64,000 nt of DNA from Desulfarculus sp. (GTDB lineage Bacteria > Desulfobacterota > Desulfarculia > Desulfarculales > Desulfarculaceae). The notes beneath the pieces are model-generated. The model saw only the letters and a list, made by a program, of their open reading frames with translations, was not told the DNA's origin and searched no databases. Both the position numbers and the translations under genes were made by a program. Within the stretch, counting starts at the first letter, position 1; each line of letters starts with the position of its first letter. Below, piece by piece: positions 37,643 to 52,672 of the stretch. The stretch covers positions 62,001 to 126,000 of the forward strand of contig QZKP01000041.1 in the NCBI GenBank assembly GCA_003605055.1. Direction: 5' to 3'.

Positions 37643-38821
37643 ATGTCCGAGCCAGTCATCTTGAGCGCGGCGCGCACTCCGGTGGGCCGTTTCGGTGGCG
37701 CCCTCAAGCCCCTCACCGACCGCGAACTGGGCGCCCTGGTCATCAAGGAAGCCATGTCGCGGGCGGGCGTGCCGCCCGACCAGGTGGAGGAGGTGGTCTT
37801 CTCACAGCAGTACCGCACCGGCGTGCTGCCGGCCAACATGGCCCGGCCCATCGCCGTGGACGCGGGCATCCCCATTCCGGTGCCCGAATACACGGTGGCC
37901 AAGGCCTGCGGCGGCTCCATCAAGACCACCATGCTGGCGGCCCAGGCCATCAAGGCCGGCGACGCCCAGCTTTTGGTGGCCGGCGGGGTGGAGCACATGT
38001 CCAACGCGGCCTATCTGCTGCCTACCGGCCGCTGGGGCGCCCGCCTGGGCCACGCCCAGTTGCAGGACCAGTTGGTGCTTTACGATCCCATCAGCCAGAA
38101 CACTATGGGCCAGACCGCCGAGAACGTGGCCGAGAAGTACAAGATCAACCGGCGGGACCAAGACGCCTTCGCCTTCGCCAGCCAGCAAAAGGCGGCCGCG
38201 GCCCTGAAGGATAACCGCTTCGCCGAGCAGATCGTGCCGGTGCCCATCCCCCAGCGCAAGGGCGCGCCCAAGATGTTCAGCGTGGACGAGCACCCCCGGC
38301 CGGAGACCACCCTGGAGGGCCTGGCCCAGCTCAAGCCGGTGTTCAAGAAGGACGGCACGGTGACTGCGGGCAACTCCTCGGGCATGAACGACGCCTCGGC
38401 GGCCCTGGTGATCGCTTCGCGGCAGCGGGCAAAGGGCCTGGGGCTGAAGCCGCTGGTGTCCATCGTGGGCTACGCCTCGGTGGGCGTGGAGCCCTCGCTG
38501 ATGGGCATCGGCCCGGTGGACGCCACCAAGCTGGTGTTGCGAAAGACCGGTCTGGCCATCGAGGACCTGGACCTGGTCGAACTCAACGAGGCCTTTGCTT
38601 CCCAGTCCTTGGCCTGCATCCGCGAGCTGGGCCTGGACGAGTCCAAGGTCAACGTTAACGGCGGGGCCATCGCCCTGGGGCATCCCATCAGCGCCAGCGG
38701 GGCGGTGATCACCATTAAGCTGATCTACGAGATGAAGCGCCGCGGCGCGGAGCTGGGCCTGGCCACCATGTGCCTGGGCGGCGGCCAGGGCGTGGCCCTG
38801 GTGCTCCGGAACGAGGGCTAA
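37643..38821 (+). CDS. Thiolase (acetyl-CoA C-acyltransferase)
   Basis: A 392-residue thiolase with all catalytic elements: nucleophile Cys89 in [18 protein letters not shown], the His of GHPISASGA and the second Cys in [10 protein letters not shown]. It cleaves a 3-ketoacyl-CoA with CoA to acetyl-CoA and a shortened acyl-CoA. The spacing to the preceding dehydrogenase is 28 bases. The complete set CoA ligase, dehydrogenase, thiolase supports a short-chain acyl degradation pathway, though no acyl-CoA dehydrogenase or enoyl hydratase gene is in the operon. Confidence 0.94.
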
Positions 38822-38874
38822 CCTCCGCGGACCCCGGCGCCTCTGCCGGGGGCCGCGTCATTTGCGAGGCCGCC

Positions 38875-40377
38875 GTGAATATAGCCGAGCTGCTTAGCAA
38901 GAGCGCCCAGCGCCGACCGGAGCACCCGGCCGTTATCTTCGCCGGTCAGAGCCTGACCTACGCCCAACTGAACCGTCGCTGCGACCAGATGGCCTGGGGG
39001 CTGCAGCAGGCCGGGCTGCGGCCGGGGGATGTCTGCGTGCTGATGATGCCCAACTCCCTGAGTTGGGTCATCGTCTATTACGCCCTGGCCAAGGTGGGTG
39101 CGGTGGTGCTGCCGGTGAACTTCCTCTACCGCAGCGAGGAACTGCGCCACATATTCGGCGACTCCGGGGCCCGGGCCTTCATCGGCCACGGCGAGCACCT
39201 GACCTACGCCGGCCCCTTGCTGGCGCAGATGCCGGTCATCGACCTGCGCATCGCCGAGGGCCAGGCGCCGGCGGGCTTCCGGCCCCTGAGCGAACTCTAC
39301 CAGGAACGGGGGCCTTTCCCGGCACACCCGGCCCAGGACGATGACACCTGGGCCATCATCTACACCAGCGGCACCACCGGCCTGGCCAAGGGCGCTATGC
39401 TCACCCACGGCAACCTGGCCAGCAACGCGATCACCGTGGGCGACATGCGCCACACCGAGCCCCAGGACGTGGTGCTGGGCGTGTTGCCCCTGTTTCACAT
39501 CTACGGCCAGACCAGCGCGCTGAACGCCGGGATACACCTGGGCCTGACCATCCGGCTGTGGGAGCACTTCGAGGCCTCGGAGGTGCGGGCGGCCATCGAG
39601 GAGCTGGAGAGCACCGTCTTTATCGGCGTGCCCACCATGTACAACCGCCTGGCCGAGCTGGCCGGGGAGAGGCCGCTGCGGCGCTCCTCCCTGCGCTTTG
39701 GCATCTCCGGCGGGGCCTCCCTGCCGGTGGAGGTGCTGCGCCGTTTTGAGGGGGCCTTTAGCACCACCATCTACGAGGGCTATGGCCTGACCGAGTGCTC
39801 GCCGGTGGCGGTGGAGAACCCCTACGGCCGGCGCACCAAGCCCGGCTCCATCGGCGTGCCCATCCCCGGTTTCAAGGCCAAGGTGGTGGACGACCAGGAC
39901 CAGGAGCTGCCCAGCGGCCGGGTAGGCGAGATCCTGGTCCAGGGGCCGGGGGTGATGAAGGGCTACCTGAACCAACCAGAGGCCACGGCCCTGGCCCTCA
40001 AAGGGGGCTGGCTGCACACCGGCGACCTGGGCCGGCGGGACGAGGACGGCTACCTGTACGTGGTGGACCGCAAGAAGGAGATGATCATCCGGGGCGGCTA
40101 CAACGTCTATCCCCGCGAGATCGAGGAGGTGCTCTATCAGCACCCGGCGGTGCTGGAGGCGGCGGTGCTGGGCGCGCCCCACCAGGACCTGGGCGAGGAG
40201 GTGGCCGCGGTGATCGCCCTGCGGCCGGGCGCGGCCGCCAGCGCCGAAGATCTGCGCGGCTTCGTCAAGGAGCGGGTGGCGCCCTACAAGTACCCCCGCA
40301 TCATCAACCTGGTGCCGGAGCTGCCCAAGACCAGCACCGGCAAGATTCTCAAGCGGGGCATAAAGGTGCAGGTTTAA
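38875..40377 (+). CDS. Long/medium-chain-type acyl-CoA synthetase (ANL family)
   Basis: A 500-residue ANL enzyme: IIYTSGTTGLAKGAMLTH P-loop (about 161-177), YEGYGLTECSP, TGDLGRRDEDGY, the hinge DRKKEMIIRGGYNVYPREIEE and catalytic Lys in KTSTGKILKR. GTG start at 38875 follows GCGAGGCC; the upstream open frame overlaps the thiolase gene in another frame and is rejected. A second ligase in the same operon suggests either two acids enter the pathway or one acts on a later intermediate. Confidence 0.9.
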   Translation: MNIAELLSKSAQRRPEHPAVIFAGQSLTYAQLNRRCDQMAWGLQQAGLRPGDVCVLMMPNSLSWVIVYYALAKVGAVVLPVNFLYRSEELRHIFGDSGARAFIGHGEHLTYAGPLLAQMPVIDLRIAEGQAPAGFRPLSELYQERGPFPAHPAQDDDTWAIIYTSGTTGLAKGAMLTHGNLASNAITVGDMRHTEPQDVVLGVLPLFHIYGQTSALNAGIHLGLTIRLWEHFEASEVRAAIEELESTVFIGVPTMYNRLAELAGERPLRRSSLRFGISGGASLPVEVLRRFEGAFSTTIYEGYGLTECSPVAVENPYGRRTKPGSIGVPIPGFKAKVVDDQDQELPSGRVGEILVQGPGVMKGYLNQPEATALALKGGWLHTGDLGRRDEDGYLYVVDRKKEMIIRGGYNVYPREIEEVLYQHPAVLEAAVLGAPHQDLGEEVAAVIALRPGAAASAEDLRGFVKERVAPYKYPRIINLVPELPKTSTGKILKRGIKVQV

Positions 40378-40427: not shown

Positions 40428-40949
40428 GTGTCGGAGCTCATCACCCCCTATGGCGGCCACCAACCGCACATCGCCGCGGGCGTGTTTGTGGACCGCTCGG
40501 CCCGGCTCATCGGGCGCATCACCCTGGCAGGGGGGGTCAGCATCTGGCCCGGCGCCGTGCTGCGGGCCGACGACGCCGAGATCGTGATCAAGGCCGGCAG
40601 CGCGGTGCTGGACCTGGCCCTGGTGGAGGCGCCCCTGGGCAAGCCGGTGGTGGTGGAGGCCGGCGCCCTGATCAGCCACCAGGTCTGCCTGCACGGGGCC
40701 ACGGTCAAGAGCGGGGCCCTGGTGGGCATCGGGGCCATCGTGCTGGACAAGGCGGTGGTGGGCGAGGGCGCCATCGTGGGGGCCGGCGCCGTGGTGCCGC
40801 CGGGCATGCAGGTGCCGCCCGGCGTGTTGGTGCTGGGCCAGCCGGCCAAGGCGGTGCGCGAACTCAAGCCGTCCGAGCAGGGGATGGTGAGTGAGCAGTT
40901 GGCCGAGCTGCACCATAAGGCCCGGGTCTACCTGAAGCAAGGCGCTTGA
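40428..40949 (+). CDS. Gamma-carbonic-anhydrase-like left-handed beta-helix protein
   Basis: A 173-residue hexapeptide-repeat protein of the gamma-CA/YrdA/PaaY group, with repeats through residues 18-130 and the closing PPGVLVLGQPAKAVREL. Two zinc histidines are present (His84 and His89 in LISHQVCLHG), but the first His of the family motif is Glu67 (LDLALVEAP). PaaY-type members act as thioesterases that release CoA during CoA-dependent degradation, which would fit between CoA ligases and a dehydratase. Start GTG at 40428. Confidence 0.88.
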   Translation: MSELITPYGGHQPHIAAGVFVDRSARLIGRITLAGGVSIWPGAVLRADDAEIVIKAGSAVLDLALVEAPLGKPVVVEAGALISHQVCLHGATVKSGALVGIGAIVLDKAVVGEGAIVGAGAVVPPGMQVPPGVLVLGQPAKAVRELKPSEQGMVSEQLAELHHKARVYLKQGA

Positions 40950-40984
40950 TCCGGCGGGGAGGTCCGTCGGCGGGGAGCGAACAT

Positions 40985-42658
40985 ATGAGCTGGCGGAGCA
41001 AGGACATCCTGCAGCGGCCGCGCTGGACCAAGGTGCGGGCCCTGTTCAAGTCCATGGGCTACAGCGACTACGACTTGGAACGGCCCCTGATCGGGGTGGC
41101 CAACTCCTTCAACACCATCGTGCCCGGGCACGCCAACCTGCGCCAGGTGGCCGAGTCGGTCAAGCAGGGCATCTACCAGGCCGGGGGCACCCCGGTGGAG
41201 TTCGGCCTGATCGCCTGCTGCGACGGCGTGGCCAACGGCCATTTGGGCATGCGATACATCCTGCCCTCGCGGGAGGTGATCGCCAATTCCCTGGAGGTGA
41301 TGGCCCAGGCCCACCGCCTGGACGGCCTGGTGCTCCTGGGCTCCTGCGACAAGATCGTGCCCGGCCTGCTCATGGGCGCCGCCCGCCTGGACCTGCCGGC
41401 CATCCTGGTGGCCGGCGGCCCCTCCCTGGGCGGTTGCCAGTTCGACGGCCGCTCGGCGGACATCACCTCCTTGGCCGAGGGCCTGGGCATGCTGGCCGCG
41501 GGCCGGTTGGCCCCGGAGGATTTCGCCCGCCTGGAAGAGGAGGTGATGCCCACCTGCGGCTCCTGCTCCTTCCTGGGCACGGCCAACTCCATGTGCTCCA
41601 TGGCCGAGGGCCTGGGCATGAGCCTGCCGGGCAGCGCCACCATCCCGGCGGTGTTCGCCGAGCGCTTCCGCGCGGCCCAGGCCTCGGGCCGGCGCATTGT
41701 GCAGATGGTCCAGGATGGCCTCAGCGCCCGCAGGATCATCAACCGCCAGGGCCTGGAGAACGCGGTACGCCTGGGCATGGCCATGGGCGGCTCCACCAAC
41801 CTGGTGCTGCATCTGTTGGCCATCGCCTACGAGGCCGGCGTGGGTCTGGGCATCGAGACCTTCGAGGAGCTCTCGGCCAGCACCCCGCACATCGCGCGCA
41901 TCTATCCGGCCGCGCCGCCCAACCTGCCCGACTTTCACCAGGCCGGCGGGGTGCCGGCGGTGCTGAAGGAGCTGCTGCCCCTGCTGCACGGCCAGGCCCT
42001 CACGGTGACCGGACGCAGCGTGGCCCAGAACGTGGCCGGGGCCCGCAAGACCGGCCAGGAGATCATCCGCAGTCTGGTAGACCCCTGGCGGGCCACCGGC
42101 GGCCTGGCCATCCTGCGGGGGAACCTGGCCCCGGACTCGGCGGTGACCAAGCCCGCGGCCATCCATCCGGACATGCACTTGTTCCAGGGCGCCGCCCGCT
42201 GCTTCGACTCCGAGGAGGCGGCCAACCAGGCCATTCAGGAGCGAAGGATTCAGGCCGGCGAGGTGGTGGTGATCCGTTACGAGGGTCCCAAGGGCGGGCC
42301 GGGCATGCCCGAGATGGCCACGGCCATGAAGATGCTCTACGGCCAGGGCCTGGCCCTGAAGACCGCCCTGATCACCGACGGCCGCTTCTCGGGCACCAAC
42401 AACGGCTGCTTCGTGGGCCACATATCGCCCGAGGCCGCCGAGGGCGGACCCCTCGCCGCGGTGCAGGAAGGCGACCGCGTCACCATTGACATCCCCGGCC
42501 GTCAGGTGAACCTGGAGGTGAGCGCCCAGGAGATGGCCCGGCGCCTGGCCGCCTGGCAGCGGCCGGCGCGTAAGTTCGCGGGCGGCTACCTGGGCCTGTA
42601 CTCGCGCCTGGCCGCCTCGGCCGCCCAGGGCGCGGTCATGCGGCCGCCAGCGGATTAG
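40985..42658 (+). CDS. IlvD/Edd-family dehydratase
   Basis: A 557-residue Fe-S dehydratase. The cluster region shows GSCDKIVPGLLM near residues 120-131 and MPTCGSCSFLGTANSMCSMAEGLGMSLPG near 189-217; a C-terminal DGRFSGTNNGCFVGHISPEA completes the family pattern. Members dehydrate 2,3-dihydroxy acids (IlvD) or sugar acids (Edd, xylonate, arabonate). No other branched-chain biosynthesis genes are adjacent, so a catabolic sugar- or dihydroxy-acid role is favoured but IlvD function is not excluded. Its stop overlaps the converging aldolase gene by four bases. Confidence 0.9.
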   Translation: MSWRSKDILQRPRWTKVRALFKSMGYSDYDLERPLIGVANSFNTIVPGHANLRQVAESVKQGIYQAGGTPVEFGLIACCDGVANGHLGMRYILPSREVIANSLEVMAQAHRLDGLVLLGSCDKIVPGLLMGAARLDLPAILVAGGPSLGGCQFDGRSADITSLAEGLGMLAAGRLAPEDFARLEEEVMPTCGSCSFLGTANSMCSMAEGLGMSLPGSATIPAVFAERFRAAQASGRRIVQMVQDGLSARRIINRQGLENAVRLGMAMGGSTNLVLHLLAIAYEAGVGLGIETFEELSASTPHIARIYPAAPPNLPDFHQAGGVPAVLKELLPLLHGQALTVTGRSVAQNVAGARKTGQEIIRSLVDPWRATGGLAILRGNLAPDSAVTKPAAIHPDMHLFQGAARCFDSEEAANQAIQERRIQAGEVVVIRYEGPKGGPGMPEMATAMKMLYGQGLALKTALITDGRFSGTNNGCFVGHISPEAAEGGPLAAVQEGDRVTIDIPGRQVNLEVSAQEMARRLAAWQRPARKFAGGYLGLYSRLAASAAQGAVMRPPAD

Positions 42659-43428
42659 ACCGTGGTTTTGACCTCTCGCAGGAAGTTTTGGAGGCACTGT
42701 CCCAGGGCGCTGCCCATGATGGCCAGGGCCGAGACGGTGAAGTAGCGCACCCCCAGTTGCAGCATGGGGGCGATGGCCTTCCAGTCCACCACGTGTACGC
42801 CGCAGACCTTGCCCGCGGCAGCCACCTGGCGGGTGATGGTCTTCAGCTGCGGCATCATCTCCGGCGCGGAAGGCGACTGATAGCCGTACTCCAGGGACAG
42901 GTCGCTGGTGCCGATGAAGACCGCGTCCACGCCTTCCACGGCCAGGATCGAAGCCAGGTTCTCCACCCCCAGGCGGGTTTCTATCTGGATGATGACCGCG
43001 GTTTCCGCCGCGGCCTTGGCTGTCACCTGCGGACGCGGGAGGAAGCCGTAGCCGGACGCCCGAGTGGTGGAGCCGTACCCCCGGCCGCCGCGGGGCGGAA
43101 ACCGGCTGGCGGCCACCGCCTCGCTGGCCTGCGGCGCCGTTTCCACCGCGGGAATCTGCACCCCCTGCGCGCCGGCGTCCAGAGCGGCTTGAATCCGTCC
43201 GGCATTCAGCTCGCGCACCCGGACGATGGCCGGCAGCCCCACCATGTCCGCCGCCCGCAGACATTCCTCCAGCTCGCGGCCGCTGAAGCTGCCGTGCTCG
43301 CCGTCCAGAATGATGAAGTCATAACCGGCCCGGCCCACCAACTCAACCAAGGCAGGCTCGGACAGGCCCAAAAATGACCCCAGCAGAACCCGGCTTCCGG
43401 TTGCTGACAAAGTTTCTTTCAGCGACAT
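42655..43428 (-). CDS. HpcH/HpaI-family aldolase
   Basis: A 257-residue class II pyruvate aldolase of the HpaI type: ILDGEHGSFSG (His about 45), GAQGVQIPAVET, the RG(R)GYGS segment near 114-119, IQIETRLGVEN with the metal-binding Glu and VFIGTSDLSLEYG with the Asp. It would split a 4-hydroxy-2-oxo acid (or malyl-type compound) to pyruvate and an aldehyde. It is the last gene of the minus-strand operon that contains a TAXI transporter and cupin. A second paralogue lies at 53361-54134. Confidence 0.9.
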   Translation of the reverse strand: MSLKETLSATGSRVLLGSFLGLSEPALVELVGRAGYDFIILDGEHGSFSGRELEECLRAADMVGLPAIVRVRELNAGRIQAALDAGAQGVQIPAVETAPQASEAVAASRFPPRGGRGYGSTTRASGYGFLPRPQVTAKAAAETAVIIQIETRLGVENLASILAVEGVDAVFIGTSDLSLEYGYQSPSAPEMMPQLKTITRQVAAAGKVCGVHVVDWKAIAPMLQLGVRYFTVSALAIMGSALGQCLQNFLREVKTTV

Positions 43429-43463
43429 CTCGTTGCCCGCGGCAGGCGAAGTTTGCTCCTTTT

Positions 43464-43793
43464 TTAAAGGTAATCATCCCGGATAGGTGTGAACACATCC
43501 AGGTTGATGATGGTTTCCTGGCCCAAAGGCGTGAGGGTGTGGGGCACGTCAGGGGGCACCAGGATCACGTCCCCCGGCCCCAGGCGCACCAAATCCTCCC
43601 CCAGGGTGAAGTCGCATTCTCCGGCCAGGATGTAGGTTATTTGCTCGTGGGGGTGCTGGTGTAAGGCGGGCTTGGCGAAGGCCTTGATGGTGTTGAGAAC
43701 CATCATGCTTTTCTCTCCGCTGAAGACCCGGCGGGTCACGCCCTCCCGGGCGACCTTTTCCTTGATTTGGCTGAAGTTGGCTTTTTTCACCAC
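43464..43793 (-). CDS. Single-domain cupin protein
   Basis: A 109-residue cupin. Motif 1 is HQHPHEQITYILAGE (residues about 45-59) and motif 2 PGDVILVPPDVPH, giving three histidines and a glutamine or glutamate for metal binding. It resembles small isomerases or demethylating/mucoid cupins, often annotated only as cupin. Located between the TAXI permease and HpaI aldolase genes, it may isomerise or sense the transported acid. The function is not known. Confidence 0.87.
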   Translation of the reverse strand: MVKKANFSQIKEKVAREGVTRRVFSGEKSMMVLNTIKAFAKPALHQHPHEQITYILAGECDFTLGEDLVRLGPGDVILVPPDVPHTLTPLGQETIINLDVFTPIRDDYL

Positions 43794-43824
43794 CGACTGA
43801 ACCTCCGCGGCGTTGGTGCAAGCT

Positions 43825-45705
43825 CTAGGCGCTCTTCAACTTGGCTTGCTTTTTAACCATCAGATGGCTGGCCGCCATAATGGCTACCCCCAGGCCAAAG
43901 CCGATTATATCGGTTATCAGGCTTCCGTGAACCAGAGCCGCGCCGGCCACGGTCATCAAGGCGCGCTCCCAGAGTCGCAGCTTGCGTTTGAAGAAGCCGG
44001 CGATGGCCACCGACAGGAACAAGACCCCGAAGATCGCCGTGACGGTCACTTGCGATATCTGCCCCCAGCTCCCATTGAGCAACAGCGCCGGCCAGTAGAC
44101 GAAGATGAAGGGCAGGATAAATCCGGGCAAGGCTATCTTCCAGGCCACGTAGCCGGTGTAAAGCGGCGGCGAACCCGAGAGTCCCGAGGCCGCATATGCC
44201 CCCAGGGCCACGGGCGGAGTGATGAAGGAATACATGCCGTAGTAGAACACGAACATGTGCGCGGCCATGGGCTCCACCCCCATCTTGACCAGCGCCGGCG
44301 CCACCAGCACCGCCAGAATTACGTAGCAGGCGGTGGTGGTCAGCCCCATGCCCAGCACCAGCGAGACCAGCATGGTCAGGACCAGCAGCAGCAGCAGGTT
44401 GCCGCCGGCCAGGGTGGTGAGGATGTTGGATAGCTGCAGGCCCAGCCCGGTGAGCGAGAGCATGCCGATGACTATGCCCGCGCAGGCGCAGGCGGTCACC
44501 ACCTCCAACATGGCCCGGCCGGCTTTTTCGAACATCTGGATCAACGCGCGCAGGTTCAGGCGGCCCTGGCGCCGCAGGAAGCCTATGGCCAGGGTGAGCA
44601 TGGCCGCGAAGAAAGCTGAGCGCATCGGCGACCAGCGCAGGAAGATCATCAAGATCAGCAGCAACACCAGCGGGGCCAGGAGGTAATACTTGCCCTGCTT
44701 GCCCTCGCGGTACTGCTGCACCTCCTGCTTGCTGAGTCCGGCCAGCCCGGCCCGGGCCGCCTCCAGGTCCACGAAGACGAACAGGGCTACGTAGTAGAGG
44801 ATGGCGGGCATCAACGCCGCCTTGATGACCTCCAGATAGGGCACCTGCAAAAACTCGGCGATGATAAAGGCCGCCGCGCCCATGACCGGCGGCATGATCT
44901 GCCCGCCGGTGGAGGTGCAGGCCTCCACCGCCCCGGCAACCTCGGGCTTGTAGCCTGCGTTTTTCATCAGGGGGATGGTGAAGGTGCCGGTGCTCATCAC
45001 GTTGGCGATGACGCTGCCGGTCAGGGTGCCCATCATGGCGCTGCCGATCACCGCCGCCTTGGCTGGCCCCCCCCGTGAGCGGCCGAAGGAGGCCATCACC
45101 ACGTCAATGAAATACTGCCCCACCCCGGTGCTGTTGAGGAAGGTGGCGAAGATGATGAAGATCACCACCACCGTGGCCGAGACGCCCAGGGGGACGGTGA
45201 AGATTCCTTCGGTAGTGAGGGTTAGGTGGCTGATGATGCGCCCAGTGTCGAATCCGCTGTGGGCCAGGACGCCCGGCAGATGGTTGCCCAAGAAGCCGTA
45301 AAGCAGCGCGGCCAAGGCGATGATGGGCAGCGGCCAGCCCAGCACCCGGCGGGTCGCCTCCAGGAGCAGGATTATGACCACGGCCCCGGAGATCAGGTCC
45401 CCCTGGTTGGGGATGCCCAGGCGGAAGGCGATGTCGTCGGCAAATACATATAGGTAGGTCCCGGCGGCCAGGGCGCCCAGGCAAAACAGCCAGTCCGCCA
45501 GCTTCCACAGGCCGTCGGCGTGCTTGCGGGGCGCCGTGGCCAGGAATACCATCATCAGCCCAAAGGTGAGGTGGATCACCCTTTGTTCGATGGCGGTCAA
45601 GGGACCGGTGGCGGAGGTGTAGAGATGAAAGAGGCAGAAGATCACAGCCACCACGGTGATGGTGTGCGAAGTGAAGGCGTCCAGGGCGCGTTTAATTGTA
45701 TCCAT
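43825..45705 (-). CDS. TAXI-TRAP fused membrane permease (TRAP-QM fusion)
   Basis: A 626-residue permease with a small N-terminal domain (helices from about residue 15 to 130) and a large DctM-like domain carrying GRSRGGPAKAAVIGS, TSTGGQIMPPVMGAAAF, GMGLTTTACYV and SFITPPVALGAYAASG. It works with the TAXI binding protein at 46350-47312 to import a carboxylate with sodium or protons. Its start overlaps the end of the DUF1850 gene by 14 bases, showing tight coupling. Confidence 0.92.
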   Translation of the reverse strand: MDTIKRALDAFTSHTITVVAVIFCLFHLYTSATGPLTAIEQRVIHLTFGLMMVFLATAPRKHADGLWKLADWLFCLGALAAGTYLYVFADDIAFRLGIPNQGDLISGAVVIILLLEATRRVLGWPLPIIALAALLYGFLGNHLPGVLAHSGFDTGRIISHLTLTTEGIFTVPLGVSATVVVIFIIFATFLNSTGVGQYFIDVVMASFGRSRGGPAKAAVIGSAMMGTLTGSVIANVMSTGTFTIPLMKNAGYKPEVAGAVEACTSTGGQIMPPVMGAAAFIIAEFLQVPYLEVIKAALMPAILYYVALFVFVDLEAARAGLAGLSKQEVQQYREGKQGKYYLLAPLVLLLILMIFLRWSPMRSAFFAAMLTLAIGFLRRQGRLNLRALIQMFEKAGRAMLEVVTACACAGIVIGMLSLTGLGLQLSNILTTLAGGNLLLLLVLTMLVSLVLGMGLTTTACYVILAVLVAPALVKMGVEPMAAHMFVFYYGMYSFITPPVALGAYAASGLSGSPPLYTGYVAWKIALPGFILPFIFVYWPALLLNGSWGQISQVTVTAIFGVLFLSVAIAGFFKRKLRLWERALMTVAGAALVHGSLITDIIGFGLGVAIMAASHLMVKKQAKLKSA

Positions 45706-46222
45706 GCGTCTTTTCCACGAACCAGGCCGCGGCCCTCGGTAGGTGGGCCACCTGTAGGGCGAACCCCTGGTTAGCTTTCAGCAGTTGGTCCAGCCGAACA
45801 GAATCCGCCTGGTGCAGGCGAAGCCAAATCGGCGTGCTGTGGGCCAGTGCGAAGTGCACGGGCAGGCGGCGCGGCGGGTCCATGACCACCTCATAACCGC
45901 CCTGCCTGGCCCGGTGCGGGAGCAGCCCCAGGGGGTCGTAGTAGTTCAGGGCGTCAAAGGAGCCGAAGAAAACCGAGGCCAGTTGCAGGTCTCCGTCTCG
46001 CAGCACGTAGCGCTCCTCTTGGACCACCCTGTACAAGGAGTGCACAAATCCCACCGCTATCCGTTGGCCCGGCGACAGGGGCAGGGCCAGGCTTAATCGG
46101 CTGTCCGGCGGGCCGGTGCGCACCTGCAACAAAGGCACCGGCCAGGCCAGATAAGTGGCCGCCAGGCACGCCAGCGCGGCCATGGCCGCCAGGCCCCGCT
46201 TTTTGCCGCCGTGTATGCGCAT
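45692..46222 (-). CDS. DUF1850-family membrane-anchored protein
   Basis: A 176-residue protein with one N-terminal signal-anchor helix (about residues 11-32) and an exported domain. The hallmarks of DUF1850 are visible: FVHSLYRVVQEERYVLRDGDLQL, then SFDALNYYD and a later LAHSTPIWLRL. This family almost always accompanies TAXI-TRAP permeases, and a part in substrate delivery or permease assembly is inferred. The start ATG at 46220-46222 is chosen over an upstream frame because it places the helix at the N-terminus. Confidence 0.85.
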   Translation of the reverse strand: MRIHGGKKRGLAAMAALACLAATYLAWPVPLLQVRTGPPDSRLSLALPLSPGQRIAVGFVHSLYRVVQEERYVLRDGDLQLASVFFGSFDALNYYDPLGLLPHRARQGGYEVVMDPPRRLPVHFALAHSTPIWLRLHQADSVRLDQLLKANQGFALQVAHLPRAAAWFVEKTHGYN

Positions 46223-46301
46223 GCCCACCCGCCGGCCGGAGGATTGGCCTGGCTTACGCCTCCCCCCGGCCGCAGCGCGGGCGGGAAGCACAAGCAGCTT
46301 G

Positions 46302-46338
46302 CCGCCCGGGGGCTCTCCCCTAAAGCGCCCCCGGGCGG
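46302..46338 (-). terminator. Strong hairpin between TAXI SBP and DUF1850 genes
   Basis: A perfect 12-bp stem (46302-46313 with 46327-46338) with a 13-base loop follows the binding-protein stop at 46350 on the minus strand. No T-tract follows, so it resembles an mRNA-stabilising or partial-stop element like those at 12287 and 63090. Confidence 0.65.
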
Positions 46339-46349
46339 TTGCCTGGGTC

Positions 46350-47312
46350 CTACTTCAGCTTGCCCTTCTCCTTCAGGTACTTTTCCGCCCCGGGGTGGAA
46401 GGGTATGGCGATGCCCTCCACGGCGTCCTGCAGATTCCAGGCGTTGCCGGCCTTGTGGATTTTGCCCAGCTCCGCGGTGTGCTCCACGATGGTTTTCAGC
46501 AGGTCATAGACCGCCTGGGCGGGCACGTCGCTGTTGGTGATCAGCACCGCCGGCGCGGAGATGGTGGGCAAGGGCTTATCCTGGCCGCTGTAAGTGTTGG
46601 CCGGGATGACCGCCTTGGCGTAGTACGGGTAATGCTTTTTGACGTAGGCGTAGTTGGACACCTCCACCGGCAGGAGGTTGATCTTCACGGTGGCGGAGAG
46701 GTCGAGCATGGAGGAGGTGGGTATGCCGGCAAAGACCATGGAGGCGTCGATGGTGCCGTCCTTGACCGCCTGGATCATCTCGGCGTAGGTCAGGTAGGTG
46801 GCGTTGTAATCAGACGGCTTGAGGCCGTAGGCCGCCAGGGCCGCCATGCTCACGAACTTGGAGGGGCTGCCCGGCGCGCTGAGGGCCACCTTCTTGCCCT
46901 TGAGGCCGGCGAAGCTCTTGACGCCCGAGGACTTCAGGGCGGCGCCTTGCAGCAAGGAGGCGTGGCCGGCCATCACCGCGCGCAGGTTGGGATACTTGGC
47001 CTTGCCCTTGAATTCGCGGCCGCCGGTGTAGCCAAAATAAGTTGCGTCGGGCATGACGATGGCGAAGTTCACCTTCTTGTTGGCCACCAGGTGGATGTTC
47101 TCGATGCTGGCCCCGGTGGACTGCACCACCAGCTTGTATTTGGGCAGGTACTGGGCCACCAGCTTGGAGATGCCGCCGCCGATGGCGTAGTAGGTGCCGC
47201 CGGTGCCGCCGGTGGCGATGGACAGGACCGTTTGGTCGGCGGCCAGCCCGCCCCCCGCGACTGCGAGAACCAGGCTCAGGGCGGCCAACACCGTCAGCAT
47301 TTTTTTAGGCAT
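46350..47312 (-). CDS. TAXI-type TRAP transporter solute-binding protein
   Basis: A 320-residue exported protein: Sec signal peptide (cleavage near residue 25, GGGLAA before DQTV), then LSIATGGTGGTYYAIGGGISKLVAQ, the TAXI name-giving segment, STGASIENIHLVANKKVNFAIV and KKVALSAPGSPSKF. It captures the substrate for the permease encoded downstream. It differs clearly from the TAXI protein at 29636, so the ligand may differ. It lies 64 bases after the LarA-like gene in the same orientation, so transporter and enzyme are probably co-transcribed. Confidence 0.93.
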   Translation of the reverse strand: MPKKMLTVLAALSLVLAVAGGGLAADQTVLSIATGGTGGTYYAIGGGISKLVAQYLPKYKLVVQSTGASIENIHLVANKKVNFAIVMPDATYFGYTGGREFKGKAKYPNLRAVMAGHASLLQGAALKSSGVKSFAGLKGKKVALSAPGSPSKFVSMAALAAYGLKPSDYNATYLTYAEMIQAVKDGTIDASMVFAGIPTSSMLDLSATVKINLLPVEVSNYAYVKKHYPYYAKAVIPANTYSGQDKPLPTISAPAVLITNSDVPAQAVYDLLKTIVEHTAELGKIHKAGNAWNLQDAVEGIAIPFHPGAEKYLKEKGKLK

Positions 47313-47376
47313 AACTTTTCCTCCCGATTAGATGGCGAGACCAGAAAACCAAGATGCAAACCAGAGCCGCTGTGGG

Positions 47377-48813
47377 TCAGGCGGCCAGGCGCTCTATTCC
47401 CCGCTGCTTGAGCCACATGGGCATAAGCTCTTGATCCACCTTGCGCGATACCTGGGCGGCCAGCCGCTGCATGGTTTCCAGCAGGGCCTGGCTGACGTTG
47501 AAGCCACCCACGGCGCCGTCGAATATCAGGATGTTGTCGGTGCGCCCGCACTTGCGGGCAAAGGCCACGGCCTTGGGCAGGTTCTCCACCTTCACCGCGT
47601 ACTCCATGAAGCGGGCGTTCTGCTCGTCGTTGGCCAGCAGGTCGGCCTGGGCCCCCACGATCAGGGTGGGAAGCTGCTGGGCAAAGAAGGTGGAGGGGTA
47701 GCCCTTGGAGCAATAGTTGAGAATCAGGCACTTGATGGCCGGGTTGGGCGGCGGGACCTCGCCCTCCACCAGGGGCTTCACGTCCGGGTAGAGCATGTCG
47801 GTGTAGCGGGTGAAGGCGGTGAAGGGCTTGTCCAGGTCGAACTCGTCGATGTTGGCGTTGAGAAAATTGCCGAAGAGGATGCCGCCGGTGGTGGTGTAGG
47901 GGATGGGGCCTGGGTAGTCGATGATCAGGATGGCCGAGTCTATGGAGCTGAGCAGGGTGATCACCTTGCCGTACCAATCCAGGTTCAGGCGGGTGAACTC
48001 CTTGTCCTGCGCGGCCAGGTCCTCGCTGGCGTCCACGCCCATGATGCCCGCTGGGGCCACCTGCAAGAAGCAGGAGCAGACGAATTTCTCCCGCACGAAA
48101 TCCGACTCGTAGATCATGCGGGGCAGGATGTTGCAGGCCCGGGGGCCCATGCTCTGGTGATAGGAGGAGCGGGTCTCTATGGTGGCGTAGGACATGGCGA
48201 AGGGTTTGAAGAGGCGGCCGATCTGCCGGTGATAGTGCAGTTCGCGCAGGTCGTTGTTGTGGGCGTGGATGATCCAGCGGGCCGAGTAGGCGTCGGCCAG
48301 GCCATAGAGGGTGCCGATGGCGGTGGGGATGGCCACGCCCCGGTCCACGGGGGCTATGCCCTTGGCCTTGCCCTGGAAATAATCCTTGAGGCCGAACTTG
48401 GCGATGTACTCCTCGGTCTCGCGGAAGCGCAGCCCCACCCCCGCCCGCAGGCGGATGTCGCTGGCCCCGCTGCGCCGGACCACCTCGTCCTTGATGGTCT
48501 TGATCATCTCCACGTAGGCTTCGCCGCCGTAAATGGAGAAACCGTGGTGCGAGGCCAGGATGTTGACCGAGTCCCCGGGCTGGATTTTCTCCAGGTTGAC
48601 GCCGGCCAGGGTGGCGAGGGTTCTCTGCCGGATCTCTTTTTTCAGTTGCTCGGCGCTGGTCCAGGGCACGGCCTGGTATTGGCTCGGGAACAGATCGTTG
48701 ATCCGGACCGAGGTGAGCCCTGGCAGGTCCTTGGCCCGCATGCCCAACTGGTCAGGGCCGATGTTGTAATAGGAGGCTCTGGCCGGCGCGGGTTCCAGCG
48801 TACGCGCATTCAT
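47377..48813 (-). CDS. Divergent LarA/DUF2088-like protein
   Basis: A 478-residue soluble protein not firmly recognised. Its first half follows the order of LarA (nickel-pincer lactate racemase, PF09861) secondary structure: PGDSVNILASHHG at 79-91, DIRLRAGVGLRFRETEEYIAKFG at 119-141 and ADAYSARWIIHAHNNDLRELHYH at 173-195. The LarA DDxTR motif is replaced by SHHGFS. Histidines 89, 90, 183, 185, 193, 195 and 219 offer a metal site. Its neighbours are a ferredoxin-BFD protein four bases upstream and a TAXI transporter downstream. It may be an isomerase or racemase of the imported hydroxy acid; the family link is tentative. Confidence 0.6.
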   Translation of the reverse strand: MNARTLEPAPARASYYNIGPDQLGMRAKDLPGLTSVRINDLFPSQYQAVPWTSAEQLKKEIRQRTLATLAGVNLEKIQPGDSVNILASHHGFSIYGGEAYVEMIKTIKDEVVRRSGASDIRLRAGVGLRFRETEEYIAKFGLKDYFQGKAKGIAPVDRGVAIPTAIGTLYGLADAYSARWIIHAHNNDLRELHYHRQIGRLFKPFAMSYATIETRSSYHQSMGPRACNILPRMIYESDFVREKFVCSCFLQVAPAGIMGVDASEDLAAQDKEFTRLNLDWYGKVITLLSSIDSAILIIDYPGPIPYTTTGGILFGNFLNANIDEFDLDKPFTAFTRYTDMLYPDVKPLVEGEVPPPNPAIKCLILNYCSKGYPSTFFAQQLPTLIVGAQADLLANDEQNARFMEYAVKVENLPKAVAFARKCGRTDNILIFDGAVGGFNVSQALLETMQRLAAQVSRKVDQELMPMWLKQRGIERLAA

Positions 48814-48816
48814 GTC

Positions 48817-49422
48817 CTAATCTCCCTTGGGGAACACTTGGTTCATGGCCGCCAGGTCTTCAGGCAGGAAGTACTCCGGGTATTTGGCGATTATCTCCGG
48901 GGGCAGGTCCCAGATGGTGAGATATGCGTTGTACCACTGCCAGCCCGGCGCCTTGTCCAGCTCCACCCCGGCCGCCTTGAGCAGGCGCAGCACCGAGGTG
49001 ATGCACAGCACCCCGCAGCCGGTGCGGACGCCGGTGGCCCGGGAGAGGGCCTCTGGGGTGTGGTGGCCCAGGAGGATGACCGCCGCCACCTCCCGGGCCT
49101 GGGTGCGGCGGCAGTAACAGATGATCTGCTCGGGGTACATGTGGGCGGCACGGCAGAGCCGCTCCACCTGGCCCGCGTCGGCCTGACGGTGGTCGATCCC
49201 GAAATAGAGCGGCTCGGCGCGGGCGATCATGCGGATGGCCTGCTCCGGGCAGCGGGTCATGCAGATGGTGCAGGCCAGGCATTGCTGGTCATCCACCTGG
49301 GACACCGGCTTGGGGCCGGACTTATCCAGACTAACCGCCTCCACGGGGCACACGCGGATGCAGTTCATGCAGGCGGTGCATTTTTCGCGGTCCACCACCG
49401 CGACCTTGTCTACGAACTGCAT
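48817..49422 (-). CDS. Two-cluster ferredoxin fused to a BFD-like [2Fe-2S] domain
   Basis: A 201-residue protein. Residues 15-25 (Cys15, 18, 21, 25) and 48-58 (Cys48, 51, 54, 58) are two classical [4Fe-4S] motifs. Residues about 98-150 look like a BFD/NirB-type [2Fe-2S] domain with CYC (Cys102, Cys104) and CGVLC (Cys136, Cys140), the last pair spaced by three rather than the usual two residues. A 50-residue tail follows. The ATG at 49420-49422 is preferred (AAGGAG upstream) over a start at 49452. An electron carrier for an enzyme of this operon is likely; its partner is unknown. Confidence 0.83.
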   Translation of the reverse strand: MQFVDKVAVVDREKCTACMNCIRVCPVEAVSLDKSGPKPVSQVDDQQCLACTICMTRCPEQAIRMIARAEPLYFGIDHRQADAGQVERLCRAAHMYPEQIICYCRRTQAREVAAVILLGHHTPEALSRATGVRTGCGVLCITSVLRLLKAAGVELDKAPGWQWYNAYLTIWDLPPEIIAKYPEYFLPEDLAAMNQVFPKGD

Positions 49423-49479
49423 GTATGCGTACTCCTTTGCCGCCCTCGGCAAGAGGGGCGTAGTCCTCGCGCCGCCTGG

Positions 49480-50157
49480 CTAGTTGGCGACTTCCAGATT
49501 TTGTTCGTAATTAACCAATAAGTCGTAAGAGCGCTGCTTGTGCCGCAGCAGGGCCTCCCGGGCCCTTTCCGCGTCGCCGTTTTTGAGTGCCTTATAGATT
49601 TCTTCGTGCTCCGGCAGGACCGAAAAGGCACGTTCGGGAATCATGATAAAAATGGACCTGGTGCGGGGATAGATGGCCCAGACCTGTTCAATCAGACGGG
49701 TGAGAACGCCGTTGCCGCACGAGGAATAGATGATGTGATGGAATTGGTAATTGAGCTTGGTGAGGGCGTCCATGTCGTTTTGCCGGGTGGTCTCGCCCAT
49801 GAAATCCAGCAGCCGGGCCATTTCTTGCAAGGCCTCAGGGGCTATGTTCTTGGCGGCAAGGGCCGCGGCCTGTCCCTCCAGCAACTGCCGGACCTCGAAC
49901 ACCTCGATAAATTTATCGAATTCAGGGTGGGTCACCTTGTAGCCCACGTGCGGCGTGTTTTCCACCAGTCCCTCCGACTCCAGGCGGTTGAGGGCCTCAC
50001 GCACGGGGATGTCGCTGATGTGCAACTCTTTGGAAATCTGTGATATTGTTAGTTTTTCCCCTGGACGATACTTGCCGTCGGCAATGTCCCGCTTGAGGGA
50101 TTCATAGGCCACGCCGGTCTTGGTGTTGAATTTATTGACCCTTATCACTTCGCTCAT
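49480..50157 (-). CDS. GntR-family regulator, FCD subfamily
   Basis: A 225-residue regulator with winged helix (LHISDIPVREALNRLESEGLVENTPH, about 47-72) and an FCD domain including LNYQFHHIIYSSCGN and ALLRHKQRSYD histidines. It heads the minus-strand operon ferredoxin-BFD, LarA-like, TAXI-TRAP, cupin, aldolase. The core promoter upstream contains a 16-bp palindrome, consistent with autorepression released by the transported acid. Confidence 0.9.
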   Translation of the reverse strand: MSEVIRVNKFNTKTGVAYESLKRDIADGKYRPGEKLTISQISKELHISDIPVREALNRLESEGLVENTPHVGYKVTHPEFDKFIEVFEVRQLLEGQAAALAAKNIAPEALQEMARLLDFMGETTRQNDMDALTKLNYQFHHIIYSSCGNGVLTRLIEQVWAIYPRTRSIFIMIPERAFSVLPEHEEIYKALKNGDAERAREALLRHKQRSYDLLVNYEQNLEVAN

Positions 50158-50494
50158 ATTCAGGCTCCATTTTTATATATTATATATAATATGTAAAAAA
50201 CGTTGTCAACGATAGATGCTGTTCAGCTTTTTGCGCGCGAGTGCGCAATAGGGAAAACTCGAACCGAAGGGAAGCAGTTATCAAGAAATTGATAATTAGG
50301 TAATTGATATTAGAGGATTATGTGCACAGGTCCTGTGATGGGAATGCCCAAGCCTTCCAGCAACCCAGTCGCTCAATTTGTTAGACCCGGCCGCGCAGTG
50401 CTCCGGCGGGCTCACTCGCCGACGACCCCTGACACCGCCACCGGGGCCTCTCCTGCCCAGGCGCGCGTGCGGTTGCAAGGCGAACCAGGCCGCG
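50158..50494. other. 337-base intergenic region
   Basis: Apart from the GntR promoter and palindrome at 50177-50209 no gene is supported. Its central part (about 50210-50330) is unusually AT-rich for this window, and the right part is the 3' flank of the VOC gene. Two short open frames across 50296-50541 lack ribosome sites and are rejected. Confidence 0.5.
50177..50209 (-). promoter_or_regulatory. Promoter with overlapping 16-bp palindrome, GntR operon
   Basis: On the minus strand TTGACA (complement of 50204-50209) and TATATA (complement of 50181-50186) are spaced by 17 bases. A perfect palindrome, ATATTATATATAATAT (50177-50192), covers the -10 region. This is a strong candidate for the GntR autoregulatory operator. 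Confidence 0.6.
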
Positions 50495-50933: not shown

Positions 50934-52439
50934 TCAGATCTGTTGGGTTTGGAACAACCTTTTCACCGCGGGTTTGGTGACCTTGCCCATGGCGTTGCGC
51001 GGCAGCTCCTCCACGAACAGGGCCAGGCTGGGCACCTTGTAGGGGGCCAGGCGCTCCTTGCCCCAGGCCCGCAGCTCCTCCAGGGTCAGGTTCTGTGAGG
51101 GCCGCAGGATCAGGGCCGCGGCCACGCGCTCGCCCCACTCCGGGTCCTCCAGCCCCACCACCGCGCACTCGGCCACAGCCGGATGGGTGCGCAGCACCTC
51201 CTCGATCTCCAGGGCCGAAACCTTGTAGCCGCCGGTCTTGATGATGTCCGCGCTCTTGCGGCCCAGGATGCGCCAGGCCCCGTCCTCCACCACGGCCACG
51301 TCTCCGGTGAGGAACCAGCCGTCCCGGAAGGCGTCCCGTGTCTCCGCGGGCCGCTGCCAATACTCGCCGAACACCGCCGGCCCGCGCACCAGTATCTCGC
51401 CGGGCTCGCCGGAGGGCGCTTCGCGGCCGGCCTCGTCCAGCAGGCGCAGCTCCACCCCGGGCAGGGCCGCGCCCACGAAGCCGGGCCGCCGCTCCCCCTG
51501 CACCGGGTTGGACAGGGCCATGCCGATCTCGGTCATGCCGTAGCGCTCCAGCAGCCGGTGTCCGCTGATGGCCTGCCATTTCTCCAGCACGCTCACCGGC
51601 AGCGCGGCTGAGCCCGAGACCATCAGGCGCAGCTTGGCGCAGGCGGCGGACAGGCGCGCCTGCTCCGGGGCCGGGGCCGCCTCCCAGGCCGCGATGAGCT
51701 TGGCGTAAATGGTGGGCACGGCCATAAACAGGGTCAAGGGCCGCTCGGCGAACTTTTGCCAGACCAGTTCGGCCTCAAAGCGGGGCAGGAACTCGCAGCG
51801 GGCGCCGGCGAACAGGGCGCAGAGCAGCACGTTGACGATGCCGTGCACGTGGTGCAGGGGCAGCACGTGCAGGATGTAATCCTCAGGCGACCACTGCCAG
51901 GCCTGCACCAGCATCTCGACCTGGGCCTCCAGGTTAGCGTGGGTGTGCACCACGCCCTTGGGCGCGCCGGTGGTGCCGCTGGTGTAGAGGATCATGGCCC
52001 GGCGGCCGGGGTCCAGGGCGGGCAGGGGGCCGGGCGGAGCGGCCAGCAGCTCGTCGCTGGTGAAAAAGCGGCTGCCCGCGGCCTGGGCCAAGGGCCGCAG
52101 GCGGTCGGCGTACTCAGGGTGGGCCGCCGCCAGGCCGGCCTGGCTGTCGGCCAGGGCATAGGCCAGCTCCGCGGCCGGGTGCAGCTCCGATAGAGGCACC
52201 GCCACCCCGCCGGCCCGCCAGATGCCCCACAGCAGGGCGGTCCAGGTGAACCCCCGCGGCGCCAGGAAGGCCACCCGCTCCTGCGCCAGGTCGGCCCGGC
52301 CCTGCAACAACCCCGCGGCCACCCGGGCCGAGGCCTCCAGTAACTGGGCATAGGTGAACTCGCCCCGTGGGCTGACCACCGCGACCCTGGGGCCGAAACC
52401 CGCGGCCCGTTCTATGAGAGCAATGCTAGGCCCAATCAT
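50934..52439 (-). CDS. Malonyl/methylmalonyl-CoA synthetase-like (MatB/ACSF3 family)
   Basis: A 501-residue ANL enzyme whose sequence follows mammalian ACSF3 and bacterial MatB closely: MILYTSGTTGAPKGVVHTHANL, HVLPLHHVHGIVN (about 214-226), LFMAVPTIYAKLI, RLMVSGSAALPVSVLEKW, LLERYGMTEIGMALS, ADIIKTGGYKVSALEIEEV and catalytic Lys in RNAMGKVTKPA. It would activate malonate or methylmalonate to the CoA thioester. Start ATG at 52437-52439 with GGAGG upstream. It is one of four CoA ligases in the window and the only one whose substrate can be suggested. Confidence 0.88.
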   Translation of the reverse strand: MIGPSIALIERAAGFGPRVAVVSPRGEFTYAQLLEASARVAAGLLQGRADLAQERVAFLAPRGFTWTALLWGIWRAGGVAVPLSELHPAAELAYALADSQAGLAAAHPEYADRLRPLAQAAGSRFFTSDELLAAPPGPLPALDPGRRAMILYTSGTTGAPKGVVHTHANLEAQVEMLVQAWQWSPEDYILHVLPLHHVHGIVNVLLCALFAGARCEFLPRFEAELVWQKFAERPLTLFMAVPTIYAKLIAAWEAAPAPEQARLSAACAKLRLMVSGSAALPVSVLEKWQAISGHRLLERYGMTEIGMALSNPVQGERRPGFVGAALPGVELRLLDEAGREAPSGEPGEILVRGPAVFGEYWQRPAETRDAFRDGWFLTGDVAVVEDGAWRILGRKSADIIKTGGYKVSALEIEEVLRTHPAVAECAVVGLEDPEWGERVAAALILRPSQNLTLEELRAWGKERLAPYKVPSLALFVEELPRNAMGKVTKPAVKRLFQTQQI

Positions 52440-52672
52440 GTTTGGTGATCCTCCGCTGGCCTGGGGACGAGCCCAATTATAGCCGCTCGGCCGCGCGGCC
52501 CAAGTAAATTCAGACGCTCCGGGCAAAGCCGTCCTGGCATTAAGCGCCGTCTTTTGTCAGAATTGGGTGGGAGGAGGCAGGGGGCTTCCCTAACTATGCC
52601 TGCCAGCGCCGCCCGCGGCGCGATCAACAGCCATACGCGTGAGCCAAGCACACCGCAGCAAGGAGGGTAGTG

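Follow-up and report, generated by a model that had tools for sequence, protein, structure and literature searches.

A LarA-fold protein paired with a dedicated ferredoxin in a Desulfarculus operon: a candidate nickel-pincer oxidoreductase that may act in oxygen-independent opening of furoic acid

What might a relative of the racemase LarA do with an iron-sulfur partner of its own? This question is raised by an eight-gene operon of Desulfarculus sp., which lies in a stretch of 64,000 nucleotides (GenBank assembly GCA_003605055.1, contig QZKP01000041.1, positions 62,001 to 126,000) that was analysed as a whole and is called the window here. We use LARX as a name for the LarA-like protein of this operon and for its family. 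Comparison of the operon with its relatives suggests that pairs of LARX and ferredoxin act without oxygen in breaking the ring of small aromatic acids, for example furoic acid. The genes, the fold, the pairing, the linkage and the operator conservation described below were computed. An open reading frame check of the window found all eight genes on the minus strand between 42655 and 50157, in the order (from the promoter to the end) GntR/FCD, ferredoxin-BFD, LARX, TAXI, DUF1850-like, fused TRAP permease, cupin and HpaI, and the features of the locus in window coordinates are as follows.

50170..50199, no strand: putative palindromic operator/promoter, an inverted repeat with 15-nucleotide arms that are 93% complementary
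50179-50190, no strand: 12-mer core of the palindrome, ATTATATATAAT (pattern ATYATATATRAT), from comparison of upstream regions
49480..50157, minus strand: GntR/FCD transcriptional regulator (Pfam GntR 62.7 bits, FCD 108.9 bits)
48817..49422 (open reading frame from TTG 49452), minus strand: ferredoxin, 2x[4Fe-4S] plus BFD [2Fe-2S] (Pfam/NCBIfam and sequence)
47377..48813, minus strand: LARX, LarA-fold protein, candidate nickel-pincer oxidoreductase (predicted fold, K203 and H219)
46350..47312, minus strand: TAXI-type solute-binding protein of a TRAP transporter (TIGR02122, 294.5 bits; cut-off 84.35)
45692..46291, minus strand: DUF1850-like small protein beside the TAXI-TRAP genes (weak match, E 0.058, under the cut-off)
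43825..45705, minus strand: fused TRAP permease (TIGR02123, 685 bits; cut-off 320.65)
43464..43793, minus strand: small cupin with an HxH...H metal-site pattern (Cupin_2, 51.3 bits)
42655..43428, minus strand: HpcH/HpaI-family aldolase (PF03328, 121.5 bits; TIGR02311, 159.8 bits, under the equivalog cut-off of 368.8)

The eight same-strand genes with short gaps that an earlier note on this DNA had described are thus all present, with intergenic distances from promoter to end of 27, 3, 64, 58, -14, 31 and 35 bp. The ferredoxin probably starts at the ATG at 49422, which stands behind an AAGGAG, rather than at the TTG at 49452, so that the distance to the GntR gene becomes 57 bp. Its sequence contains two CxxCxxCxxxCP motifs for [4Fe-4S] clusters and the CxC ... 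CxxxC of a BFD [2Fe-2S] domain. Profiles uphold the identities proposed earlier for GntR, ferredoxin-BFD, TAXI, TRAP, cupin and HpaI, and the TAXI-TRAP transporter is complete, with a binding protein and a fused permease that both exceed their NCBIfam cut-offs; the DUF1850 assignment stays weak and under the cut-off, and this small protein is 43% identical to the protein at the same position of locus L047 and 40% to that of L048.

LARX has no Pfam or NCBIfam match at an E value of 1 or below and no notable sequence match in the PDB, and Pfam Lar_N (PF09861) was listed at this threshold for 0 of 37 family members. The earlier assignment to LarA was therefore not derived from profiles, and it is the fold that supports it. 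In the AlphaFold2 model (21 sequences; pLDDT 85.7, pTM 0.87) we recognize the two-domain fold of LarA: the five top Foldseek matches in the PDB are all chains of the LarA superfamily (E 3.8e-8 to 5.2e-7), among them 7s91 and 6d6z (malate racemase) and 9q3k and 9q3j (LarA-like enzymes with a single histidine), with modest TM-scores of 0.38-0.49, and the sixth match drops to an E value of 3.0e-3. The Lar_N matches of the Desulfarculus genome are located elsewhere than the operon. Two other LarA-like proteins of this genome (L001, G000:C1; L002, G000:C4:140750-141205) match Lar_N only from about position 45 on, and the latter lies about 29 kb from the window operon.

Counts given in the following refer to a sample of 96 distinct loci with 98 LARX genes. 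Duplicate contigs (L079, L112, L101) and L044, which overlaps L039, were dropped before loci were counted, and similar strains, for example L060/L061, were kept. The loci represent the best matches to the LARX query together with the hits in the class and the phylum and are not a random sample; many of them end at contig edges, so that partners lying beyond these were missed.

In LarA the pincer is held by lysine K184 and nickel is bound by histidine H200 (excerpts of PMC7583248). K203 and H219 of LARX, which show the same spacing of 16 residues, are invariant in all 98 distinct genes (121 of 121 rows if repeats are included), and local hhalign pairs them with K184 and H200, respectively, in a weak match (P 0.017-0.024) that stays in register over about 150 columns. 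The LarA profile used for comparison was built from 22 canonical LarA proteins, in which D70, R73 and H107 (numbering of that profile) are invariant. The DxTRPTP motif of LarA (D72, R75) is absent from LARX; nearly all members read S-[HEQR]-[HY]-G-F at that place and the window protein S-H-H-G-F, in agreement with the strong divergence and the lack of a DDxTR-type motif noted before. At the place of the catalytic H108 the profile alignment shows no histidine (R in 88 of the 98 proteins, otherwise G, A or T). For H174 of LarA, H193 is aligned (86 of 98) and H195 stands two residues off (96 of 98). LARX thus looks like a LarA-fold protein that keeps the attachment of the cofactor without the acid/base set of a racemase, and it is not filed here as a LarA racemase.

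The pairing with the ferredoxin is the most regular feature of the family. A ferredoxin-BFD gene lies directly upstream on the same strand at 95 of the 98 LARX genes, and the three genes without it all begin at contig edges. In a tblastn comparison covering about 1.5 kb of flank where the contig allowed, ferredoxin-BFD was found at all 20 LARX loci and at none of the 33 Lar_N loci, some of which are truncated. The combination of a LarA-like protein with an iron-sulfur partner, which the earlier note had singled out in this one operon, is therefore conserved among relatives. Two of the outcomes that the note had named as contradicting it, a structure prediction lacking the LarA fold and relatives in which the pair is not kept, were thus looked for and did not occur. 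In three loci the ferredoxin ahead of LARX carries an NAD(P)H-binding GltD-like module (Fer4_20/pyridine-nucleotide flavin; L037, 11071-13191; L050, 7954-9981; L064, 8046-10004), which suggests that NAD(P)H may be the source of electrons there; at the threshold applied, no BFD domain was listed for the L037 ferredoxin.

The genes around LARX in other genomes carry the argument about the substrate. Neighbour families were identified by profile for one or a few representatives, and the remaining members were assigned by BLAST hits and clustering. An MhpD-like protein is encoded in 55 of the 96 loci, 4-hydroxy-2-oxovalerate aldolase in 47, acetaldehyde dehydrogenase in 46, the importer BenE in 35 and IclR in 47, followed by M24 (28), UbiD (15), AOR (11), FeADH (10), HpaI (6) and cupin (5). 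Representatives of the aldolase, the acetaldehyde dehydrogenase and BenE each exceed their cut-offs; the MhpD-like representative reaches 324 bits with the model for 2-oxopent-4-enoate hydratase, 286 with HpaH and 276 with the decarboxylase DmpH, all below cut-off. The hydratase-like protein, the aldolase and the acetaldehyde dehydrogenase, together with BenE and HmfF-like UbiD proteins, point to a (hetero)aromatic acid whose breakdown leads to a dienoate of five carbons. If the MhpD-like protein is indeed a 2-oxopent-4-enoate hydratase, the entry point is C5H6O3, i.e. 2-hydroxypenta-2,4-dienoate, which has the formula of 2-furoate (C5H4O3) plus 2[H]. For a two-electron reduction to yield C5H6O3, its substrate has to be C5H4O3, which among the plausible aromatic acids is 2-furoate. 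Birch reduction of 2-furoic acid yields the 2,5-dihydro acid. BenE fits the import of furoate, and AOR and FeADH could oxidize furfural and furfuryl alcohol, a role in acetaldehyde metabolism being equally possible. The M24 proteins are creatinase/prolidase-like hydrolases (e.g. L066, 12819-13922), which perhaps release the acid from an amide conjugate.

The idea that furoate is the substrate, and that the UbiD proteins might be HmfF, had been set down before these proteins were compared with HmfF. In the PDB the UbiD of the Moorella stamsii locus L102 is a close sequence match to PtHmfF, scoring 638 bits against 6h6v and 618 against 6h6x, with 226 for the next family, and the UbiD of L048, a relative of the window operon, is nearest to 6h6v as well (283 versus 160 bits). 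6H6V is PtHmfF, the HmfF of Pelotomaculum (a passage of PMC8988006), and HmfF together with HmfG converts furan-2,5-dicarboxylate to 2-furoate (a passage of PMC6644310). The UbiD proteins of nine loci share the motif EHLLLG, whose histidine may correspond to H297 of HmfF, described in part of PMC7976604 as key to furan specificity; the same column also holds histidine in the less similar UbiD proteins of L028, L039, L048, L050 and L051.

How the cofactor of LARX is made is a question of its own. LarB is found in 22 loci, LarC in 22 and LarE in 13, with any of the three in 27 of the 96, and in L047 an operon of the window type runs unbroken into genes for a QPRT-like protein, LarE, LarB and LarC. 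The Desulfarculus genome encodes LarB, LarC and LarE, each over its curated cut-off. Two other families are more frequent, a QPRT-like protein (76 of 96 loci) and a MoCF-domain, MoeA-like protein (75 of 96), and the two are fused in 7 loci. The window operon contains neither of them, and the genome has both at its second LARX locus. The QPRT-like family shows G-x-[WF]-K-K versus G-T-R-K-T of NadC and D-K-N-Y versus K-D-N-H, in nearly all of the 69-70 sequences compared with the NadC proteins shown. These NadC motifs bind quinolinate, and a role of the QPRT-like protein as supplier of nicotinic acid mononucleotide is disfavoured by the altered motifs. The model of the MoCF-domain protein (pLDDT 89.2) has its best structural matches among the metal insertases gephyrin-E, MoeA and Cnx1E, with CinA and MoaB/Mog lower, and at least three histidines occur within the last 30 residues of 39 of 68 such proteins, whereas nine other families each contain at most one member of this kind. 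AOR (11 of 96 loci) is the sole molybdenum- or tungsten-type enzyme identified among the neighbours. These features suggest that the QPRT-like and MoCF proteins complete or insert a nickel cofactor, which may be a pincer nucleotide in modified form; the occurrence of the His-rich tail in only 1 of the 7 fused forms counts against this suggestion. In Alicyclobacillus (L086, L088) the genes form a run of LarE, LarB, LarC, ferredoxin, LARX, QPRT and MoCF, with a second LarC-like gene after MoCF.

We regard it as the leading explanation, at a little less than an even chance, that the window operon serves to take up a small heteroaromatic acid and to break it down without oxygen, 2-furoate or a furoate with a ring substituent being the most likely substrate. 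The cofactor, the redox direction, the substrate and every reaction step, including ring reduction by LARX, are what we infer from fold and gene content. The acid would be imported by the TAXI-TRAP transporter. K203 of LARX would hold the nickel-pincer nucleotide or some variant of this cofactor, and H219 would bind the metal; the enzyme would receive two electrons from its dedicated ferredoxin-BFD and pass them as hydride to the ring, and the resulting dihydrofuroate would open by elimination to a 2-hydroxy-2,4-dienoate. At about half of the relatives' loci, MhpD-type hydration and 4-hydroxy-2-oxovalerate aldolase would then lead to pyruvate and acetaldehyde. In the window variant these steps would fall to a hydratase encoded at another place in the genome, or to the cupin, and then to HpaI as the enzyme of retro-aldol cleavage. 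GntR would repress the operon through the palindrome until substrate is present. More tentatively, and with clear doubt, we put forward the broader proposal that the LARX branch represents the first nickel-pincer oxidoreductase, catalysing a Birch-like opening of furan-2-carboxylates without oxygen, fed by ferredoxin-BFD, with a modified pincer nucleotide as cofactor, whose synthesis would be completed by a diverged phosphoribosyltransferase together with a His-tailed nickel insertase of MoeA type.

Several observations weigh against the furoate explanation. The hhalign match between LARX and LarA reaches a probability of only 2-3% and is not improved by a deeper alignment, global mode did not align the K203/H219 region to LarA (P 0.075), and a profile search of the PDB with LARX found no LarA. 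LarC does not discriminate, being present in 13 of 14 LARX-positive and in 39 of 42 other genomes, and the presence of LarB, LarC and LarE in the Desulfarculus genome is therefore weak evidence. The reaction of the MhpD-like protein is not settled by its scores, those for HpaH and DmpH being nearly equal to that for the hydratase. The window operon lacks MhpD, 4-hydroxy-2-oxovalerate aldolase, UbiD and BenE, as well as an acetylating aldehyde dehydrogenase according to Pfam/NCBIfam and the neighbour families, and its genome encodes no 4-hydroxy-2-oxovalerate aldolase over the cut-off. This genome does contain MhpD-like genes, below cut-off, on C2 and C17 (one of them in the second LARX cluster), and HpaI would thus be a likely aldolase for both of its LARX clusters. 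A nearby UbiD is missing from 81 of the 96 loci, and the PDB comparison covered two UbiD proteins, those of L102 and L048. Genes for coenzyme A (CoA) ligase-like proteins flank the window operon, and a CoA-dependent route is possible there. The Alicyclobacillus locus L086 ends in a lactate-permease-family gene, which leaves a hydroxy-acid role open for some LARX members. Finally, the lone anaerobic furfural route that we found described, that of Desulfovibrio furfuralis, is an oxidation, not a reduction, and proceeds via 5-oxo-4,5-dihydrofuran-2-carboxylate (as quoted in a passage of PMC11384913).

Part of this evidence has to be set against three other explanations. LARX might be an orthodox pincer enzyme for a 2-hydroxy acid, acting as racemase, epimerase or 2-hydroxy-acid:ferredoxin dehydrogenase, with the TRAP transporter importing the hydroxy acid and HpaI cleaving a 4-hydroxy-2-oxo acid later on. 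This is close to the earlier note, which had envisaged import of a hydroxy or keto acid and its isomerisation or redox conversion; a plain lactate-type racemase operon ranks second among the explanations considered here. It would agree with the 2-hydroxy-acid racemisations and epimerisations reported for LarA homologues (in the excerpts of PMC7583248), with the family name of HpaI-type aldolases, which cleave 4-hydroxy-2-oxo acids, with the lactate-permease-family gene of L086 and with the absence of a C5 lower pathway from the window operon. We nevertheless consider it unlikely, and such a substrate less likely than an aromatic or heteroaromatic acid: LARX does not retain H108, D72 and R75 of LarA as such at the corresponding positions, a racemase needs no redox partner and yet ferredoxin-BFD stands at 95 of 98 genes, and BenE, the MhpD-like protein and the HmfF-like UbiD are better suited to an aromatic acid.

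Slightly less probable still, in our estimate, is that LARX performs the same chemistry on another acid, such as thiophene-2-carboxylate, a benzoate-like acid with a hydroxyl group, or pyrrole-2-carboxylate, which would open to a 2-aminodienoate and then release ammonia. By formula, two-electron reduction of pyrrole- or thiophene-2-carboxylate reaches the same level, BenE denotes merely a family of aromatic-acid importers, and pyrrole-2-carboxylate is the substrate of another UbiD enzyme (part of PMC7976604), but the UbiD of the Moorella locus is HmfF-like, with 638 bits versus 117.5 bits to PA0254 (4ip2). The least probable of the three is that LARX uses a different metal-nucleotide cofactor made by the QPRT-like and MoeA-like proteins, and that LarB, LarC and LarE serve other LarA proteins nearby. 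The higher frequency of the QPRT-like (76 of 96) and MoeA-like (75 of 96) proteins compared with LarB/C/E (27 of 96), their fusion in 7 loci, the altered motifs of the former and, for the latter, the resemblance to metal insertases with His-rich tails in 39 of 68 would all be in line with this. However, the local profile alignment places K203 on the lysine that holds the nickel-pincer nucleotide and H219 on the nickel ligand, the genes for LarE, LarB and LarC come immediately after that for QPRT in L047, the window operon does without the QPRT-like and MoeA-like proteins, and a His-rich tail is seen in only one of the 7 fused proteins.

Compared with known systems, LARX resembles the LarA superfamily (Lactobacillus plantarum LarA, Mar2, GntE2 and the single-histidine group of 9q3j/9q3k) in its fold and in the spacing of the candidate lysine and histidine, and LarB/C/E are linked in 27 of 96 LARX loci or present in the Desulfarculus genome itself. 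Unlike that superfamily it has no Lar_N match, no DxTRPTP and no histidine at the H108 place, and it comes with an iron-sulfur partner and a gene context of the aromatic-acid type. The LarA-superfamily proteins reported in passages of PMC7583248, PMC12611868 and PMC11770544 are racemases, epimerases or homologues that await characterisation, and none of these papers uses the word ferredoxin in its main text. With the aerobic furoate (Trudgill) pathway, hmfABCDE and hmfFGH, some LARX loci share the HmfF-type furandicarboxylate decarboxylase; that route leads via furoyl-CoA synthetase and furoyl-CoA dehydrogenase to 2-oxoglutarate (excerpts of PMC6604932), whereas no such synthetase/dehydrogenase set is present among the neighbour families identified, which do not comprise all families. 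CoA-ligase-like genes occur in 6 LARX loci including the window, and for two of the three such genes in the window the 25 best models listed include no furoate ligase. The hydratase-like protein, aldolase and acetylating aldehyde dehydrogenase found in about half of the LARX loci recall the lower meta-cleavage pathway of catechol (MhpD/DmpE, DmpG/BphI, DmpF), but a ring-cleaving dioxygenase is absent from the identified neighbour families, and five loci of the window clade have HpaI and a cupin instead. Many LARX hosts are strict anaerobes. The two candidate cofactor proteins, finally, share a fold with MoeA/gephyrin-E insertases (the MoCF-domain partner) and a profile with NadC (the QPRT-like partner), and differ from them in the frequent His-rich tail and the altered motifs.

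In the literature searched, mostly open-access and largely by title and abstract, no pair of LarA and ferredoxin and no reductive opening of furoate is described. If LARX takes electrons from outside, the role of the nickel-pincer cofactor would widen beyond the reported racemisation and epimerisation of 2-hydroxy acids, as far as these are covered by the excerpts cited above. Furfural and hydroxymethylfurfural inhibit microbes in biomass hydrolysates. A review of 2018 names the need for oxygen as an obvious limitation of the known furan route and expects fungi or anaerobic bacteria to reveal other pathways (a passage of PMC6604932). The route proposed here, if true, would supply the anaerobic furan pathway that has been missing for acetogens, sulfate reducers, archaea and further organisms, testable in strain-designated carriers such as Moorella stamsii, Clostridium magnum, Sporomusa acidovorans, Desulfoscipio geothermicus, Thermovorax subterraneus and Aneurinibacillus danicus, and the diverged phosphoribosyltransferase with its MoeA-like companion provides a testable lead on the assembly of a nickel cofactor.

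The palindrome ahead of the operon, noticed earlier from the sequence, is real. Its core ATYATATATRAT, a pattern derived from the upstream regions of the same loci, has one match in the window and none in 100 shuffles, occurs once in the whole 3.6-Mb genome, and is conserved upstream of the orthologous GntR gene in three relatives, namely L046 (one copy), L047 (two) and L048 (two), which are contigs of Rhodopila, Nitrospira and Rhodospirillales metagenome-assembled genomes (MAGs), respectively; the 3.8-kb contig L046 shows only the first three genes of the operon. Among the 174 loci searched, the core is also present elsewhere in L070 and L094, and L004 is the window site itself. The palindrome therefore looks like more than an AT-rich accident, and GntR/FCD is probably an autoregulator that acts through it.

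LARX was detected in 7 of 63 genomes of the class and in 11 of 395 genomes of the phylum sample, the Desulfarculus genome included in both cases, with one of the 11 (G178; E 8.7e-4, eight internal stops) rejected as spurious. A scan of genome contigs retained the best 80 of 181 LARX-encoding stretches, and hosts among these, by record title, include Clostridia, Moorella, Sporomusa, sulfate reducers, Archaeoglobus and other archaeal MAGs as well as Chloroflexi, Alicyclobacillus, Aneurinibacillus, Breznakiella and alphaproteobacterial MAGs. In a tree of the 98 proteins the window LARX groups with L046-L048 (support 1.0), then with L050/L051 (0.988) and then with L080, L095 and L111 (0.997). HpaI and the cupin occur together in 5 of 96 loci, all inside this nine-member clade, so that the aldolase/cupin module recurs with LARX; HpaI alone is found in L083 too. 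For the two Clostridium loci L095 and L111, identity is 48% for the cupin and only 26-27% for HpaI, and the pairing of cupin and aldolase is thus kept even where the aldolase differs.

The second LARX copy of the Desulfarculus genome (C2:41875) shows 48% identity and lies in a cluster (L026, G000:C2:32001-52000) of IclR, ferredoxin-BFD, LARX, QPRT-like, MoCF and MhpD-like genes, which continues with ABC-transporter and indolepyruvate-oxidoreductase-like genes. Locus L039 (G137:C141:34001-53900) contains three LARX genes inside 15 kb, each with its ferredoxin-BFD, together with UbiD, TAXI, QPRT-like and MoCF genes. In the window, acyl-CoA-ligase-like genes are located on both sides of the operon (38770-40377, plus strand; 50934-52526, minus strand), the latter being nearest to acyl-CoA synthetase and malonyl-CoA synthase models, below cut-off. 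An IlvD-family dihydroxy-acid dehydratase gene over its NCBIfam cut-off (40946-42658, plus strand) lies outside the operon and is convergent with the HpaI gene, the end of which it overlaps by 4 bases. A second HpaI-family aldolase (53361-54134, plus strand; TIGR02311, 171 bits, under the cut-off), 35% identical to that of the operon, is encoded on the opposite strand 3 kb past the operon.

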